Assembly: GCA_009392515.1 (NCBI GenBank)
Contig: VFGE01000037.1
Span: 1 to 39,520, forward strand
DNA length: 39,520 bases
Source: SAR202 cluster bacterium
GTDB taxonomy: Bacteria > Chloroflexota > Dehalococcoidia > Lucifugimonadales > UBA6952
Reading direction: 5' to 3'
Of this stretch, positions 21,631 to 34,117 are shown piece after piece (within the stretch, counting starts at the first letter, position 1; every line of letters begins with the position of its first letter). A model generated the notes under the pieces. The model made no database searches. It saw only the letters and a list, made by a program, of their open reading frames with translations, and had not been told where the DNA came from. The position numbers and the translations under genes were made by a program.

Positions 21631-23331
21631 ATGCAAAAATTTATTGATTTAAAAAAGACAGCCCAAAGCCACTACGATAATATTCTTAAAAAACCTCGAA
21701 TAAGAGTTGGCACAGACATCTCAGGTGTTGCTGCCGGCTCCCTTGAAATAAGCAATGAATTTTCAAAATATATCTCAGAGAAAAACCTTGATACAACCTT
21801 ATCACATGTCGGTGGATTTGGACTTTCTTATGCCGAACCTTTGATTGATGTTGAAATGCCTGATGGTTCTAGAGTTTTTTATTCAAACGTATCCATTCAA
21901 AACGTAAAAAATATTGTAGAGAGCCACATTATTAATGGGAAACCACTTTATGATATAGCATTTGCTTATACTGGCAATTTAGTTAATACGAATAACACCC
22001 CAGAATTTTACGAACTACCTGAAAACAAACTTCAGAAAAAAATACTCACTGAAAACTTTGGTCATATTGACCCAACAGATATATATGAATACATAGTAAA
22101 TAACGGTTATTCAGCCTTAGCAAAAGCATTGTTTGAAATGGAAATAGATAATGTTCACAAAGAAATATTGGATTCCAAACTTCGTGGCAGAGGCGGAGCA
22201 GCATTTCCTACCGGTGTTAAATTGGGGTTTTTGAAAGGTTCAGATGCTAAAGAAAAATACATTTTATGTAACTGTGAAGAAGGAGACCCTGGAGCCTGGA
22301 ATGATAAAGCAATACTCGAAAGTGACCCTCATCGCTTACTCGAAGGTTTAATATTGGCAGCTATAGCTACAAACGCATCTAACGGTATCATTTTTATTAG
22401 ACACGGTAACGATATTCCAATCGAAAGAACAAAAGAAGCTGTTAAAAATGCTTATGAACACGGCTTGCTTGGTAAAAATATTTTGGGATCAGAATTCTCA
22501 TTTGATGCAGAAGTAGTATTAGTAGGAGAATCGTATGTAGCTGGCGAAGAAACAGCCTTAATGGAAGCTATTGAAGGTAAGAGAGCAATGCCTAGGTACA
22601 AACCACCTTTTCCTGCTGCCTTTGGAGTATGGGGACACCCAAGTAATATTAATAATATTAAAACCATTGCAAATTTACCATCCATAATTCTCAAAGGTAG
22701 TGAATGGTTTACTTCAATTGGGACTGATACTAGTACAGGAACTGCTATTTTATGCCTCTCTGGGAATATTAATAAACCTGGGTTATATGAAATTGAAATG
22801 GGTACAACTATAAGATCTGTAATAGAAGACATATGTAATGGTATTCCAGATAATAAAGAATTAAAGTTACTTCAAACAGGAGGACCCTTAGGTGGAGTAC
22901 TTAATTCTACTAAATTAGATACATCTATAGATTTCGATTCAATGGCTAAAGCTGGCGCTATATTAGGTTCAGGTGGAATAATTGTTGCTGATGAAGATGT
23001 TGATGTAGTAGATTTAACACGAATGTTGATAGCATTTTGTCAGTTCGAATCTTGTGGGAAATGTTTCCCATGTCGCCTTGGAAATTCACATTTATTAGAA
23101 ATACTAAATCGAATATGTGGCAAAAACTCATCAGATTCTGATATCGATTTGATGAGAAAAGTTGGTACTAATATGCAACAAGGATCACTTTGTGGTCATG
23201 GTCAACTAGGGTTTAATCCGATTAAATCCGCATTAGAATACTTTAAAGAAGATTTCGATTTCGCTTTGGATTCAACACCAAGTATATCCAATACAACTAT
23301 TAATATACCTACACGAGCTAATCGCTATTAA
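21631..23331 (+). CDS. nuoF: NADH-binding flavoprotein subunit (NuoF/HoxF/HydB-like)
   Basis: The 566-residue protein carries the NADH/FMN site LRGRGGAAFPTG (184-195) and CNCEEGDPGAWND (213-225). A SLBB region follows, then the [4Fe-4S] site ESCGKCFPC with Cys475, Cys478, Cys481 and Cys521. By family it oxidises NADH with FMN. About 120 extra N-terminal residues resemble the thioredoxin-like domain fused to HydB/HoxF-type subunits (IRVGTDISGVAAGS, EPLIDVEMPDG), but every cluster-ligand cysteine of that domain is missing. The long form is more like hydrogenase or formate-dehydrogenase diaphorase subunits than E. coli NuoF. Confidence 0.95.
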   Translation: MQKFIDLKKTAQSHYDNILKKPRIRVGTDISGVAAGSLEISNEFSKYISEKNLDTTLSHVGGFGLSYAEPLIDVEMPDGSRVFYSNVSIQNVKNIVESHIINGKPLYDIAFAYTGNLVNTNNTPEFYELPENKLQKKILTENFGHIDPTDIYEYIVNNGYSALAKALFEMEIDNVHKEILDSKLRGRGGAAFPTGVKLGFLKGSDAKEKYILCNCEEGDPGAWNDKAILESDPHRLLEGLILAAIATNASNGIIFIRHGNDIPIERTKEAVKNAYEHGLLGKNILGSEFSFDAEVVLVGESYVAGEETALMEAIEGKRAMPRYKPPFPAAFGVWGHPSNINNIKTIANLPSIILKGSEWFTSIGTDTSTGTAILCLSGNINKPGLYEIEMGTTIRSVIEDICNGIPDNKELKLLQTGGPLGGVLNSTKLDTSIDFDSMAKAGAILGSGGIIVADEDVDVVDLTRMLIAFCQFESCGKCFPCRLGNSHLLEILNRICGKNSSDSDIDLMRKVGTNMQQGSLCGHGQLGFNPIKSALEYFKEDFDFALDSTPSISNTTINIPTRANRY

Positions 23332-23343
23332 AGGGAGAAAATA

Positions 23344-26172
23344 ATGGTAGCAAATGGTCAAGAAATAACTATCACAATAGATGGGAAAAATATAACAACA
23401 TCCCCTGGTAAAACTGTTCTTGAAGCTGCACTAGATTCACAGATATATATTCCATATTTATGCTACCACCCGGGTATGAAACCTTTTGCTGCTTGCAGAA
23501 TGTGTATGGTGAGAGAAGAAGTAGAAATGGAAGTAGACCAAGATGGTCAAAAAGTAAAACAAAAAGTATTAAGACCTGCTACTGCATCATGTGCCTTGCC
23601 AGTTCGTGATGGGATGGTAATTAAATCTAATACTGAAGAAATACGAGAATTGCAAACAGACATAATGGAAATGGTTATTGCCGAACATCCACATGGTTGT
23701 CTTACTTGTCATAGAATAGATTTATGTGGACCTGGAGATATCTGTTTACGTCATGTATCTGTAAATGATAGATGCGTAACTTGCCCTAAAAATGAAAGGT
23801 GTGAATTAAAAGACACCGTAAGATTTCTCGGTATGGATATAAATTCTCCTCTGAATTACCAAACACGTAATCTCCCAGTAGAAAATGGCGATCCTTTTTA
23901 TGATCGAGATTATAATTTATGCATTGTTTGTGCACGATGTGTCAGAGTCTGTGAGGAAGTACGTGGTGATAATGCAATTACTTTCCTTGAAAGGGCAGGG
24001 CAGTCTCTTGTAGGGACAAGCAATGGAACAAGTCTTATGCAATCAGGATGTGAATTCTGTGGTGCTTGTATAGATGTTTGCCCAGTTGGAGCTCTAGTAG
24101 AGAGGGATAATAAATGGGAAAAAGCTACAAATGTTGAAAAAACGATTTGTAATTTATGTCCTGCTGGATGTCAACTTAATTTTGAATTCAATCAACGTAA
24201 TAAAATGATCCGTGTTATACCCGAATTAAATTCTCCTGTTAATAAAGGACAAGGATGCTTTAGAGGTAAATTTGGTTCAGATTACGTAAATAAAAAAAGA
24301 AATACTACTCCAAAAGTTCAAAATAATGGAATATTCACTGAAATTGAATTAGATAAAATTATTAATGATCTTTCAGGTAGAATCGAAACTATGAGCCCCG
24401 ATCAAACAGTGTTCTTAGTTGCTCCTAATATTTCCAATGAATCTGCTTATGTAACGCAAAAGTTTGCACGATCAGTTCTAAAAACTAATAATATAATAAC
24501 TGATACTGATATCTCTTCTCAATATATAGAACCATTAATAAATAGATTGGGATTTGCAGCTTCTACAAATACTATTTGGAATATTGAAAAGTCTGATTGT
24601 ATTCTCGTTATAAACGCGAATATTACTGAAGAATACAATTTATTAGGTTTACCTATCAAAAGTGCACAACGTAATGGAAGTAAACTTATTACAATTGACT
24701 CTAGAGAAACTGAGACAACATCATTTTCAGATAAATGGATCAGACCTAAACCAGGTTCAGAAACAATACTTCTACAATCTATTATTAAAAAAATGATCAC
24801 TTTAAAAAAGACAAATCTTGATGAAATATTTCAAGAGATTACTCCTCTAGAATACATAGAGAACTTATCAAACCTTTCTGATGAAACTATTACTCAACGT
24901 ACTGGTATTTGTTCGAACGATATCGATGCAATTACTAGCGAATTGTTCAATGCAAAATCAATTTCATTAATTTACGCATCTGATAATATTCTGTTCCCAC
25001 ATCTTAATAGCTATGTTAATAATATAATTGATTTAACTATAGTGTCTCAAAACGTATTTGTTGAAAATGGAGGGATTTATCCATTATCTCAAGGTAGCAA
25101 CCAACAAGGTATTATAGATATGGGGTGTAGATCTGAAGTTTTACCAGGGCATCAATTAGTAAGTAATCAAGAATCTGTAAATAAAATTTTAAATACATAT
25201 GGTTCGGATAACTTTAATACAAATCCAATTGATTATAATAAATTTGTCGATATGCATAGAAACGCTTTGGTAAAAAATATATTTATAGTTGGAGACATTG
25301 AGTCATTTTCAGAAAACCATATAATATTCGATGAGAAACTTCGAAATAATATTGATAATTTGATAACTATAAATCCATCCCCATCTGAAAAACTAAATCA
25401 AATTAGTGATTATATTGTACCCACAACACTACATACTGAAGAAAGTGGTACCTTTACAAATTTGGAGAGAAGAGTCCAAATATCTGATGCTATTATACCG
25501 ACCTCAGGCAATGTTCTTCCAATCTGGAATGTTCTTTCAATAATTGCTTCAAAACTAAGTAATAAAACATTTAACTATAACAATTCTTCAGATGTTATGA
25601 ACGAAATATCTTCACAAATTACACAATATAAATCAATTTCATATGCCAAATTAAATTCTAATGCAAAAGTAATTTTGAAACCCGCAGAAGATAATCCACT
25701 ACCAACACAATTGTTACATTCAGATCGTATCTTAATAGGTTTATGTTGGCCAGCCGAAATTAATGTTAATGAGTTAAAAATAACTTCTCTTAGTAATTGT
25801 GAAGATATAAAAAACGAAAATGATATATTGAAATTAATACCTGGGAGAGTTTTGTCGCTTGAAGGCACTGAAATTGAAACAAATCCATTTACTAATAAAA
25901 ATAAAGTTATTTACGAAAAAATATTGACTATTTCATTGGACGATGCTACCAATCTATCCCTTTCACCTGGAGACAGAGTGAACATTTCATTTAATGATGT
26001 TGAAACTACTGCGGAAATCAAAATAGATCCAAACTGGCACAACGGATTTGTATCCTGTACGGATTTATTTGCAGAATATATCTCAGAATTAGAAGAAGAT
26101 AAAACATTTAACCCTATGCTAAAACCTGGTAAATTACATTACCAAAATGTATTAATAACAAAAATTAACTAA
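23344..26172 (+). CDS. nuoG: Iron-sulfur/molybdopterin-fold subunit (NuoG/Fdh-alpha-like)
   Basis: The 942 residues hold, in order: a [2Fe-2S] domain (Cys40, 51, 54, 83); the His-Cys3 site His115, Cys119, 122, 128; an extra block with Cys134, 144, 147, 153 ending CELKD; two [4Fe-4S] sites (Cys193, 196, 199, 203 and 236, 239, 242, 246); and a further site Cys269, 272, 276, 305. A molybdopterin-oxidoreductase fold follows. Around residues 385-391, where formate dehydrogenases have the Cys/Sec metal ligand, it reads TDTDIS, so this domain is probably not catalytic, as in NuoG. A strong Shine-Dalgarno AAGGGAG (23331-23337) precedes the ATG. The protein should relay electrons from NuoEF. Confidence 0.93.
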   Translation: MVANGQEITITIDGKNITTSPGKTVLEAALDSQIYIPYLCYHPGMKPFAACRMCMVREEVEMEVDQDGQKVKQKVLRPATASCALPVRDGMVIKSNTEEIRELQTDIMEMVIAEHPHGCLTCHRIDLCGPGDICLRHVSVNDRCVTCPKNERCELKDTVRFLGMDINSPLNYQTRNLPVENGDPFYDRDYNLCIVCARCVRVCEEVRGDNAITFLERAGQSLVGTSNGTSLMQSGCEFCGACIDVCPVGALVERDNKWEKATNVEKTICNLCPAGCQLNFEFNQRNKMIRVIPELNSPVNKGQGCFRGKFGSDYVNKKRNTTPKVQNNGIFTEIELDKIINDLSGRIETMSPDQTVFLVAPNISNESAYVTQKFARSVLKTNNIITDTDISSQYIEPLINRLGFAASTNTIWNIEKSDCILVINANITEEYNLLGLPIKSAQRNGSKLITIDSRETETTSFSDKWIRPKPGSETILLQSIIKKMITLKKTNLDEIFQEITPLEYIENLSNLSDETITQRTGICSNDIDAITSELFNAKSISLIYASDNILFPHLNSYVNNIIDLTIVSQNVFVENGGIYPLSQGSNQQGIIDMGCRSEVLPGHQLVSNQESVNKILNTYGSDNFNTNPIDYNKFVDMHRNALVKNIFIVGDIESFSENHIIFDEKLRNNIDNLITINPSPSEKLNQISDYIVPTTLHTEESGTFTNLERRVQISDAIIPTSGNVLPIWNVLSIIASKLSNKTFNYNNSSDVMNEISSQITQYKSISYAKLNSNAKVILKPAEDNPLPTQLLHSDRILIGLCWPAEINVNELKITSLSNCEDIKNENDILKLIPGRVLSLEGTEIETNPFTNKNKVIYEKILTISLDDATNLSLSPGDRVNISFNDVETTAEIKIDPNWHNGFVSCTDLFAEYISELEEDKTFNPMLKPGKLHYQNVLITKIN

Positions 26173-27629: not shown

Positions 27630-28421
27630 ATGAATAAAAATAAATCTATATATTTTCTAAATATTAAATATATCCCACTGATTATTTATGTTGGGTTCAT
27701 ATTATTACCTATATTGGTATTATTATTTAATGCGTTTACTAATAATAATGTTATAAATGCAATTAGTAACCCGATAGTTACTTCGGCATTGTTTTTATCA
27801 TTAATAACAAGCTTCATTGCAATAACAATAGTAATATTTATTGGTATACCTGTTGCCCATATAATTACTAAAAGTGATTCTAAATTGATTAAATACATTG
27901 ACTACACTATAGAATTACCAATTATATTGCCGCCAGTAGTTGTTGGATTTGCAATGCTTATGACATTTGGGAAAAATGGACCAGTCGGTCAATATCTTAT
28001 AGATTTTGGAATTTCGATTCCTTTTACAACTATTGCAGTAATCTTAGCTCAAATTTTCGTGGCTTTTCCCTTCTTTCTAAGATCAGTGCGACTCGGATTA
28101 AGTAATATCAATACCGATTACGAAGATATTGGTAGTAGCTTAGGATTCAACCCAATAAAGCGTTTTGTTTATATTAATTTACCACTCGCTTGGAAATCAA
28201 TAATTAATGGAGCGGCATTAGGTTGGGCACGTGCAATTTCAGAATTCGGTGCAACTTTGGTATTTGCTGGTAATCTAACTGGAGAAACCCAAACTATGCC
28301 ATTAGCTATTATTTCTACTATGGAATCAGACTTTGAATTAGGAATAACGCTATCTGCAATTCTTATTCTAATATCAACACTGGTTTTAATACTGTTAGCA
28401 AGATTAAGATACAATACCTAA
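27630..28421 (+). CDS. modB: Molybdate ABC transporter permease
   Basis: The 263-residue permease has about six helices. ELPIILPPVVVGFAMLMTFG in the middle and the EAA loop DIGSSLGFNPIKRFVYINLP are family hallmarks, as is WARAISEFGATLVFAGN. It forms the membrane channel for molybdate or tungstate with ModA, eight bases upstream. No ModC ATPase follows: the stop overlaps by four bases the stop of a gene on the opposite strand. The ATPase must be encoded elsewhere or shared with another transporter. Confidence 0.95.
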   Translation: MNKNKSIYFLNIKYIPLIIYVGFILLPILVLLFNAFTNNNVINAISNPIVTSALFLSLITSFIAITIVIFIGIPVAHIITKSDSKLIKYIDYTIELPIILPPVVVGFAMLMTFGKNGPVGQYLIDFGISIPFTTIAVILAQIFVAFPFFLRSVRLGLSNINTDYEDIGSSLGFNPIKRFVYINLPLAWKSIINGAALGWARAISEFGATLVFAGNLTGETQTMPLAIISTMESDFELGITLSAILILISTLVLILLARLRYNT

Positions 28422-29920: not shown

Positions 29921-30448
29921 TTAATGAGTACCTTCTCTAACTAACAGCGGATCCATTCCTTGCATACCTCTCAAAAAATTCATTTCGCCTCGGTGTCCAT
30001 TAAAATGGCCTAACATATGTAGGGAGATGGATTCATCGATTTGTTCTGTGCCATTTCGAGCTTTTACCTCTTTTGAAAGATCTTCATCAGTTAGTTGATC
30101 TAATAATTCAGCGGTAGAATCCCAAACAAGTTCTTGATATTTGATAAAGTTTTCCATACTAGTGATAGTAACTTTTTGTGCATCATCATCAGATTGACCG
30201 TTACCATTACCATCAAATGGTAAACCAGTTTTTTGGGCCCATTCTTCATTCCAGATAGGTTCAGTTTCTTTAATTCTCACATTAACAATCATGTCTTCAA
30301 CTCTAGTTGTGTGCCATAGACACCATGCTATTGAATGACTGCCAAAATCAGGTACAAAGTGTATTTGTTCGTTCGTACCATTACAAGCATCTCGTAAAGC
30401 TCTGTGGACAAATGCAAGACTCCATTTTATATGTTCTATTCTACTCAT
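29921..30448 (-). CDS. DinB-fold (DinB/YfiT superfamily) protein
   Basis: The likely protein is 175 residues, starting MSRIEHIKW. The DinB four-helix-bundle metal triad is visible as His46 ([11 protein letters not shown]) and His148 and His152 ([11 protein letters not shown]). DinB-fold proteins bind a metal and include thiol-dependent transferases such as mycothiol- or bacillithiol-using enzymes and DNA-damage-induced proteins; which applies here is unclear. The frame extends 22 codons upstream, but AAGGAGAG (30461-30454) sits five bases before ATG 30448, which also overlaps the upstream stop by 8 bases. It lies between the DUF255 gene and the dipeptidase in one apparent operon. Confidence 0.85.
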
Positions 30449-32543
30449 TAAAACTCTCCTTAATATAAATCCATTCATTAGAGATTTTATCATATGGTTT
30501 TGATATTTTATCAATAAGCTTTCCCAAGTCGGTTAATGGTTCATCGCAAATGAAATTGCTACAATAATACCCTGTAATGTTATGATCTACTATAGTTTTC
30601 CCTGTATATAATGGGTTTTCCTGTAAATTCGGTAATTCAAATTGATTTATACCAGAAATTAAAAGATAAGGATGGAAAAATTGATTTAGATCTGATGCTA
30701 AACTTAAAATCTGAGTCGAGCGTTTTGAAAATTTTGGGTAAGAAATAATTAATTCATTAGGTTTTTGTTGTGTTGCATTAATATAAGAGAGCCAGTTGGT
30801 AAATGATAATGAAGATTTATCGATTAAATCAATAACAGATGTAATATTTAATTCAGATATTGTTTTATAAGATTCATTGTTGAACATTATTGAAAGTTTA
30901 TTTAATACGATAGAAGACATTGAATGAGCTGATGGAATGACTCCATCATGCGAGTCTCTTGGCCTAAATATTAAATCCTTTTGAATATTCGAGGTGTCAT
31001 AAAAACGACTAGATTCCTTATCCCAGAATAGTTCTATCATAGTTGCTGAGAGACTTCTTGCTTTTTCAATCCAAATATAGTCTAGAGTTATTGAATGAAG
31101 GGTAATGAGAGTATCTAATATATAGACATAATCTTCTAAATATCCATACGAATTCGAAAAATTGTCTGTATGAATTAAAAGATTATCTTTCATAAGATTA
31201 GTTAAAATATATTCTGTATTTTTAATTGCAATATCAAGATAACGTGTGCCGAGAAAAATCGATGCTTTTGCAAAACTTTTGGCCATCATAGCATTCCATG
31301 ATGTTATGATTTTAGTATCTGTAGATGGCTTTACACGTTTATTTCTTTGCTGGTACAAAAGATACCTACATTCTTCTATAATACTTGAGAGATTTTCTGG
31401 CGCGATGTTAAGTTTAGTTGATAACTCATAATGGTCTTGTTGTATGTGTAAAATATTGGTACCTTCGAAATTTCCATTCTTTTGAACCCCATAATATTCA
31501 CAAAATATTTTACTGTTATCTTTGCCTAATATTTTTTCTATTTCATCTAATTGCCAAGTGAAATATTTTCCCTCAACGCCCTCTGAATCAGCATCTTGGC
31601 TAGAATAAAATTCACATGAATCGCCTGTCATTTCTAATATTATATAATCTAAGGTTTCTTTAACTATTCTTAAGTATTGTGTGTTTTTTGTGATTTTATA
31701 TGCATCAACATATACTGAAGATATTAGGGCATTGTCATATAACATTTTTTCAAAATGAGGTACAAGCCAAAATGCATCAGTGGAATATCTATGAAACCCA
31801 CCACCAAGTTGATCGTAAATCCCCCCACAAGCCATACCATTCAGTGTCTGGAGAACCATATCTAAACAATCATGATTTTTTGTCGAATAAAAGATTTCTA
31901 GCAAATAATTCAAAATAGTTGGTTGAGGAAATTTAGGAGCTGCTCCAAAACCACCATAATTTTTGTCATAGTGATTTCGGATTTGAACTATAGACGTATC
32001 AATGACATTTTGAATATCTATTGAATTGAATTGGATATTATCGTTTTCAAAACTTATATGGTTGGTTAATTTGTCTGCCAGGGGTGCTATTTCATCATAT
32101 TTATTATAAAAAGCATTTTTCATAGCTTCTAAGACTTGTTTAAAACTCGGCATGCCATGGCGTGGTTCAAATGGGAAATAGGTACCAGAAAAGAAAGGTT
32201 TTTTATCTGGTGTCAAGAACACAGTCATGGGCCATCCACCATGGCCATTTTGTGCTAATACAGCTTGCATATATATATTATCAATATCAGGTCTTTCTTC
32301 ACGATCAACCTTAATATTAATAAAATATTTATTCATCAATTCGGCAGTTTCAATATCTTCAAAACTTTCCTTTTCCATAACATGGCACCAATGACACGAA
32401 GAATAACCTATACTGAGCAATATAGGCTTATTTTGACTTTTTGAGGCTTCTAAAGACTCCTCTCCCCATGGATACCAGTCGACAGGATTTTCAGAATGTT
32501 GTAATAAATAGGGACTTGTTTGATTTGCTAATCTATTTGGCAT
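30441..32543 (-). CDS. Thioredoxin-domain protein of the DUF255/YyaL (SPATA20) family
   Basis: The 700-residue protein opens with the family's [14 protein letters not shown] and [11 protein letters not shown], then a thioredoxin-like domain with Cys50 and Cys53 in [14 protein letters not shown]. The [20 protein letters not shown] segment follows, and a long helical (alpha/alpha)6-barrel region resembling glycoside hydrolases and epimerases, including [17 protein letters not shown]. The family is widespread, and its biochemical role is not settled. There is no signal peptide, so it is cytoplasmic. It is the first gene of the leftward operon and diverges from selD across a 94-base gap. Length and motifs are normal. 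Confidence 0.95.
30454..30461 (-). promoter_or_regulatory. Shine-Dalgarno fixing the DinB-fold gene start
   Basis: AAGGAGAG lies five bases before ATG 30448 within the end of the DUF255 gene, and argues against the in-frame upstream start at 30514. Confidence 0.8.
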
Positions 32544-32599: not shown

Positions 32600-32637
32600 C
32601 TTATTTTTGAAACATTCATTTTTGAGGAATTGAATAT

Positions 32638-33690
32638 ATGAAATATGATGATTCGGCAAAATTAACGCATATGTCTCATTGCGCTGGTTGAGCTGCAAAA
32701 TTCAGTCCAAGTGACTTGGAGCAAGTTTTGCTTCATATACCACAATCTAAACATTCATCCCTATTAGTAGGAATGGAAAATAACGATGATGCTGCTGTTT
32801 ATAAATTGACAGAAGAAACAGCTATAGTTAAGTCTTTAGATTTTTTCCCTCCAATAGTAGACGATCCTTACTACTTTGGTTCAATTGCAGTAACAAATGC
32901 ATTAAGTGATATCTATAGTATGGGCGCTACTCCACTTGTAGGTTTAAATATTGCATGTTTTCCTAAAACTATGTCTAAGGATATTATTGGCAAAATTCTC
33001 CTTGGCGGATATGAAAAAGCCAATGAAGCCGGTGTTGTAATTGCAGGAGGGCATACCATAGATGACCCTGAACCCAAATATGGTTTAGAAATAACAGGCA
33101 TTATTAAACCTGGTAATGAAATCACTAATAATAATGCTAAGTCTGGGGATAAGTTAATTCTAACCAAGCCTCTTGGAACCGGAATTATTACGACTTCAAT
33201 GAAAAATGGCAAACTAAAAAATGATAGTTCAGTGATATTAAATGCTATTAATGTAATGAATACTCTTAATAGGGATGCTTCCATAGTTATGACACAAACG
33301 GGAGTTAATAGTGCAACTGACATAACTGGTTTTGGATTGTTAGGCCATCTATATAACATGCTTAAATCAAGCAACAAATCTGCTAAGCTTATATATAATT
33401 CTATCCCTATAATAAAAGGAGCAATCGAGTTAGTTAAAGAAAATACTCCTGGTGGAACAGTAAGTAATAAACAATCACTTGAAGAACATATAATCTTTGA
33501 TGAATCTATACATAATGATGAACAAATCTTATTATATGATGCCCAAACTTCAGGAGGATTACTTATAAGCGTTTCATCTAATAAAGCAGAACAACTGATT
33601 TTAGAAATGGTAAATTATAATATAGACGCTAAAATAATCGGTGAAGTAATAGATAAGGATACAAAATCTTCAAAGATAATTGTGGGTTAA
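32638..33690 (+). CDS. selD: Selenide, water dikinase (SelD), selenocysteine-containing
   Basis: SelD makes selenophosphate from selenide and ATP for selenocysteine and selenouridine synthesis. Reading from ATG 32638 (GAGGA at 32624-32628, nine bases upstream) gives 350 codons with one in-frame TGA at codon 18. The context SHCAG-U-AAKFSP aligns with E. coli SHGAG-C17-GCK20, so Sec18 takes the catalytic Cys17 position and Lys21 the essential lysine. Later motifs are intact: ENNDDAAVYKL, SIAVTNALSDIYSMGATP and AGGHTIDDPEPKYG. The open frame after TGA (first start TTG 32716) would lack the active site. The JAMM peptidase gene follows after one base. Confidence 0.94.
32689..32691 (+). other. selD: In-frame UGA read as selenocysteine (Sec18 of SelD)
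   Basis: This TGA interrupts an otherwise perfect SelD N-terminus exactly where the family has Cys or Sec, three residues before the conserved lysine. Sec at this position is known in SelD of other bacteria such as Haemophilus influenzae. Confidence 0.92.
32695..32731 (+). promoter_or_regulatory. Bacterial SECIS hairpin in selD
   Basis: The lower stem GCAAAA (32695-32700) pairs with TTTTGC (32726-32731). An internal loop of five bases per side follows, and the upper stem TCCAAG (32706-32711) pairs with CTTGGA (32715-32720) around the loop TGA (or GTGAC if the top pair opens). The apical loop lies 20 bases after the UGA, in the distance range described for bacterial SECIS elements, with a G at the loop's start in the open form. 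It would recruit SelB with Sec-tRNA. Confidence 0.8.
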
Positions 33691-33691
33691 A

Positions 33692-34117
33692 ATGAAAAAA
33701 ATACACGTTCAAATTGAAATTATAGATGAAATGATCAAACATTCAATAGAAGAAAACCCTAACGAATGCTGCGGACTAATCGGAATTAACTCCAATCAAG
33801 CACAAAATGTTTTTAAAATGACTAATATTGATAAAAGTCCATATCGATACAGAATGGATCCCAAAGAACTATTAGACACACTAACCGAAATCGAAACTGA
33901 CAGTGGTAAATTATATGCTATTTACCACTCCCATACACATTCAGAAGCATATCCATCAGCAACTGACGTACGTATAGCAACATGGCCTGATGGTACATCT
34001 GTATGGCCTGAAGTCTACTACTTTCTTGTTACTCTACAAGATATTACTAATCCAAATGTTAGAGCATTTGAAATAAATGATGGGGAAATATCAGAAGTTG
34101 ATATAATTAAGAAGTAG
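33692..34117 (+). CDS. JAMM/MPN+ metallopeptidase (M67 family)
   Basis: This 141-residue stand-alone JAMM domain has the complete zinc site: Glu25 in NECCGLIG, His79 and His81 in YHSH, then Ser89 and Asp92 (H-S-H-x7-S-x2-D). Prokaryotic members cut isopeptide or C-terminal extensions of ubiquitin-like sulfur carriers (ThiS/MoaD-like) in sulfur-transfer pathways. Such a partner is not in the window. The start is ATG 33692, one base after the selD stop, so the two are probably co-translated, which hints at a link to selenium or sulfur handling. The longer frame from TTG 33680 is less likely. The 3' end overlaps the convergent leuB by 11 bases. Confidence 0.9.
   Translation: MKKIHVQIEIIDEMIKHSIEENPNECCGLIGINSNQAQNVFKMTNIDKSPYRYRMDPKELLDTLTEIETDSGKLYAIYHSHTHSEAYPSATDVRIATWPDGTSVWPEVYYFLVTLQDITNPNVRAFEINDGEISEVDIIKK

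Follow-up and report, generated by a model that had tools for sequence, protein, structure and literature searches.

Selenophosphate synthetase (SelD) is needed to build selenocysteine (Sec), and among prokaryotic selenoproteins only one is more widespread than Sec-SelD. A 39,520-nt stretch of DNA from a SAR202 cluster bacterium (contig VFGE01000037.1 of assembly GCA_009392515.1; the window) carries a selD frame with an in-frame TGA close to its 5' end, which raises two questions: which hairpin downstream of this codon would act as a selenocysteine insertion element (SECIS), and is the codon read as Sec at all? An earlier reading made from the letters alone (the sequence-only reading) had proposed that selD is itself a selenoprotein gene, with both its UGA and its SECIS lying upstream of the apparent frame.

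The selD frame and its product

Translated through its single in-frame TGA (codon 18, 32689-32691), selD occupies 32638-33690 of the forward strand, stays open from there to a TAA at 33688-33690, and encodes 350 residues with Sec at position 18, beginning MKYDDSAKLTHMSHCAGUAAKFSPSDLEQVL. A profile search matched this product to the SelD family TIGR00476 over model positions 1-310 of 311 (E 7.4e-108, 360.4 bits, cut-off 125 bits), and a domain search found AIRS and AIRS_C. The features of the gene and its 3' neighbor are as follows.

32624..32629, + strand: Shine-Dalgarno-like GAGGAA, 8 nt 5' of the ATG at 32638
32680..32682, + strand: codon for Cys15, part of a CxxU motif (Cys-Ala-Gly-Sec)
32689..32691, + strand: TGA predicted to be read as Sec18, at the position of Cys17 in E. 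coli SelD
32698..32700, + strand: codon for Lys21, conserved as the K of UxxK
33692..34117, + strand: JAB/MPN-domain gene (Prok-JAB; PF14464, 2.5e-18), starting right after the selD stop

What the sequence-only reading had said about this 5' end is borne out. The ATG at 32638 is preceded by a Shine-Dalgarno-like element, the AGGAA of which is kept in a congener (G001) though the bases just upstream differ, and the TGA at codon 18 is followed by the rest of a SelD. This TGA falls at the catalytic Cys17 site, three residues before the conserved lysine, since Sec18-Ala-Ala-Lys21 aligns to Cys17-Gly-Cys-Lys20 of E. coli SelD (PDB 3u0o); Cys17 is the selenide-binding site of the E. coli enzyme, and a Cys17Ser mutant is inactive (PMC3956282). 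The truncation predicted for automated gene callers also occurs: with TTG 32716 taken as the start, the standard ORF call yields 324 amino acids, so that the first 26 residues of SelD, including the active site, are dropped. The window has seven frames that are interrupted by a TGA and continue for 60 codons or more beyond it. Of these, selD alone belongs to a known selenoprotein family, and its fold after the TGA is the strongest by a wide margin; none of the other six is gene-like, which leaves no candidate for a second Sec gene in the window. At the level of sequence, we consider it confirmed that the gene is a selenophosphate synthetase with Sec at its own active site.

Two hairpins downstream of the UGA

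Two mutually exclusive hairpins can be drawn after the TGA.

32717..32735, + strand: best-supported bacterial SECIS hairpin, with an 8-bp stem and a GUU apical loop (32725-32727), 33 nt after the UGA
32695..32731, + strand: two-part hairpin of the sequence-only reading, the minimum free energy (MFE) fold of free mRNA; not conserved

The two-part hairpin does fold just after the UGA, as the sequence-only reading had described: its energy is -15.1 kcal/mol (z -2.65; 2 of 200 shuffled sequences did as well), its pair probability in free RNA is about 0.99 in both congeners, and it is more stable there than 32717-32735 by about 6.6 kcal/mol. However, its proposed role as the SECIS does not hold up. 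An ungapped alignment of 73 distinct sequences from the order showed no covariation in 32695-32731, with 59.3% of cells paired against 59.0% in shuffled columns, and this absence rules it out as a conserved SECIS. For the 32717-32735 stem, 79.6% of cells were paired, compared with 72.8% in shuffled columns (0 of 500 shuffles as high), and 45 two-sided changes were seen where 19 were expected; column shuffles leave shared ancestry in, and slid versions of the stem, which keep that ancestry as a control, had only 21.5-40.9% of cells paired. The same hairpin had 39% of cells paired in 11 Cys-type SelD sequences, and 3.4 of its 7 scored pairs were present in 19 Cys-type sequences as opposed to 5.6 of 7 in 177 Sec-type sequences (rank test p 9e-7, a test that ignores relatedness).

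A published bSECIS model calls for a loop of 3-9 nt, a stem of 4-16 bp, a spacing of 16-37 nt and an MFE of -7.5 kcal/mol or lower, with a G among the first two nucleotides of the loop, usually as part of G[G/U] (PMC13188914). The 32717-32735 hairpin fits this model with its GUU loop, 8-bp stem, 33-nt spacing and energy of -7.8 kcal/mol, although the last lies at the edge of the rule, being -7.8 with flanks and -7.0 without them. An Rfam search of the window gave no match. We therefore propose 32717-32735 as the putative SECIS of selD, the best supported of the two. Because this hairpin covaries and 32695-32731 does not, the SECIS would not lie upstream of the apparent frame, as had been claimed, but just inside the ORF that starts at TTG 32716.

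It is possible, though unlikely, that Sec is inserted but that in this genus 32695-32731 serves as the working SECIS, read via its inner stem with UGA (32712-32714) as the loop. Its dominance in free mRNA from both congeners would favor this, as would a spacing of 20 nt, within the 16-37 nt rule, and a C-to-T change in the congener that adds a pair to the hairpin. However, besides its lack of covariation, the loop so read is without the usual G[G/U], and the lower stem lies in a stretch expected to be covered by a ribosome at the UGA. When 10-20 nt from the UGA onward were masked, a simple computation that mimics such a ribosome rather than a ribosome model, the RNA refolded into 32717-32735. 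One could go further and regard the two exclusive folds as a switch, in which 32695-32731 hides the SECIS in ribosome-free mRNA, and 32717-32735 can form only once a ribosome at the UGA has opened the lower stem of the longer hairpin. We rate this idea as a long shot; were it true, Sec insertion and selenophosphate supply in the genus would depend on ribosome traffic.

Conservation of the UGA and the Sec machinery

The congener keeps the TGA in a SelD with 92% protein identity. Codons 1-17 differ between the two genes by 2 synonymous and 0 non-synonymous changes, and the rest of the gene by 71 synonymous and 28 non-synonymous codon differences. A listing of strong SelD matches from 98 genomes of the order has 83 entries, each with exactly one in-frame TGA; one of these entries is cut by a contig end. 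In a wide collection of genomes, the 80 best matches divide into 69 with TGA and 11 with TGC or TGT; both Sec- and Cys-type SelD occur in the wider class, where two genomes carry one of each. The in-frame UGA is kept at the Cys/Sec site in homologues together with the residues that precede it, and relatives do not start downstream of it. In a tree of this one gene, the window sequence falls among Chloroflexota, where one large group contains both it and a SAR202 cluster sequence, and window genes of Chloroflexi- and archaea-type families agree with this placement. The GC content of the window is 31%.

The machinery expected by the sequence-only reading to lie elsewhere in the genome is present in the same assembly (1.55 Mb in 62 contigs, 98.45% complete, 2.84% estimated contamination), on other contigs than selD. 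A tRNA-Sec with anticodon UCA scored 61.2 bits against an Rfam cut-off of 47, and selA (515 bits) and selB (338 bits, with a C-terminal SelB winged-helix domain) are above their curated cut-offs. The congener likewise has a UGA-selD, tRNA-Sec and selB. When ten genomes of the order were tested, selB was over its cut-off in all five that have a UGA-selD, and did not reach it in the four for which no SelD is listed (G029, G032, G054 and G058). In the tenth, G037, both selB and tRNA-Sec exceed their cut-offs and no full-length selD is among the matches listed, a gap that is likely a loss in assembly, though it may be a real absence of the gene. G043 has a UGA-selD and selB, and its best tRNA-Sec, with 150 of 406 candidates scored, reaches 44.5 bits, below the cut-off.

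The standard ORF call would allow another reading, namely that the true start is TTG 32716 or some other downstream codon, the TGA being a real stop and the frame upstream of it untranslated. This is very improbable, since such a start would lose the catalytic loop, the codons upstream of the TGA are conserved at the protein level with an ATG and Shine-Dalgarno in place, and the Sec machinery is there. That the UGA arose by sequencing error or marks a decayed pseudogene, a reading in favor of which no point was found, has a negligible chance, since the congener and the 83 order matches listed carry the same UGA and synonymous differences predominate between the congeners.

We are thus left with selD as, almost certainly, a selenoprotein gene in which Sec18 is inserted at the UGA with the help of 32717-32735 and whose product makes selenophosphate. 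Translation would start at ATG 32638, and at the UGA (32689) we infer that SelB-GTP-Sec-tRNA-Sec, bound to 32717-32735 through its A-GUU-U apex, would bring about Sec insertion in place of termination. The resulting 350-residue SelD would convert selenide and ATP into selenophosphate, with Sec18, in a flexible N-terminal loop, as the presumed selenium-handling residue. This selenophosphate would feed SelA, and SelD would therefore be needed for its own synthesis. No match to a selenouridine synthase (mnmH/ybbB) was found in the genome, so selenophosphate in this organism probably serves Sec alone.

Probing the genome with chosen selenoprotein families also turned up a second selenoprotein gene (L187, positions 1474-2145, contig C26), thioredoxin/AhpC-TSA-like, with its TGA in the context MWASW-U-VCRAQ; its W-U-V-C motif has one residue fewer separating U from C than the usual UxxC, and the hairpin after its TGA has the same A-GUU-U apex as the putative selD SECIS. 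Around selD itself, the JAB/MPN-domain gene is possibly co-transcribed with it, and the divergent gene at 30441-32543 (- strand), with which it has a common upstream region, encodes a protein that contains a thioredoxin domain (DUF255/DsbH) and a CHWC motif. At 21631-26172, near a molybdate-type ABC permease (27630-28421), lie genes for NuoF-like and formate dehydrogenase/NuoG-like subunits. The frame of this formate dehydrogenase-like gene has no stop, and hence no in-frame TGA, even though UGA is decoded as Sec in this organism.

Partner cysteines and comparison with known SelD systems

Among 196 SelD loops, a sample biased to relatives of the SelD studied here and counted with ancestry ignored, a Cys stands at -3 from the catalytic residue (CxxU/CxxC) in 100 and at +2 (UxC/CxC) in 76; 20 loops have it at neither position and 0 at both. 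A resolving role would suit a single partner Cys that may occupy either side, and we did not find this exclusivity stated in a limited search of the literature. When the loop was left out of tree building, well-supported branches forced at least 3 changes for the CxxU type, and the best tree had 7. The rule that CxxU-position SelDs are never Cys-type held in the first 155 sequences and failed on Cys-type SCAGCAAK and SCAGCAGK loops of the class. G192 (L234, L237) and G355 (L233, L238) each carry a CxxU selD of Sec type beside a Cys-type selD without a partner Cys, and these pairs offer natural material for studying the Sec-to-Cys change. Desulfosporosinus fructosivorans (G102) has three Sec-type selD genes, one CxxU and two UxC (L190, L195, L239).

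Two practical points follow for annotation. Since the organism decodes UGA as Sec, its genes need recoding-aware annotation. Moreover, the SelD SECIS was placed here by covariation and not by lowest energy, a warning that the hairpin of lowest energy downstream of a UGA should not simply be taken as the SECIS, least of all where a genome is AT-rich.

The selD of this window resembles Sec-SelD/SPS2 (TIGR00476) in its family, in Sec at the Cys17 site, in its UxxK motif and in a coding-region SECIS just downstream; nothing in kind sets it apart, except that the AT-rich sequence here lets the free mRNA adopt another stable fold. E. coli SelD (3u0o) aligns over nearly its whole length (E 8.6e-70), with Cys17 (AGCGCK) on Sec18; it has Cys for Sec and a second Cys at +2 (GCGCK), whereas here there is Ala at +2 and Cys at -3. 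Aquifex aeolicus SelD (PDB 2yye/2zod; E 1.5e-63) places SGCAAK on AGUAAK and is without either neighboring Cys. A Cys three residues before Sec was described in the Global Ocean Sampling survey of 2008, as CxxU in about 5.6% of single-domain Sec-SelDs, with CxxC in Ndh-SelD fusions (PMC2398784); this form was a minority there but is the rule in the order examined here (70 of 75 TGA sequences). As Sec-SelD, its bSECIS (reported in SelD genes by Mariotti et al. 2015, PMC4561486) and its CxxU form are already published, the selD of this window is of a known kind. The reading is real and correct but ordinary: a known arrangement, confirmed here in an AT-rich Chloroflexota bacterium, and easily mis-annotated as a shortened protein.
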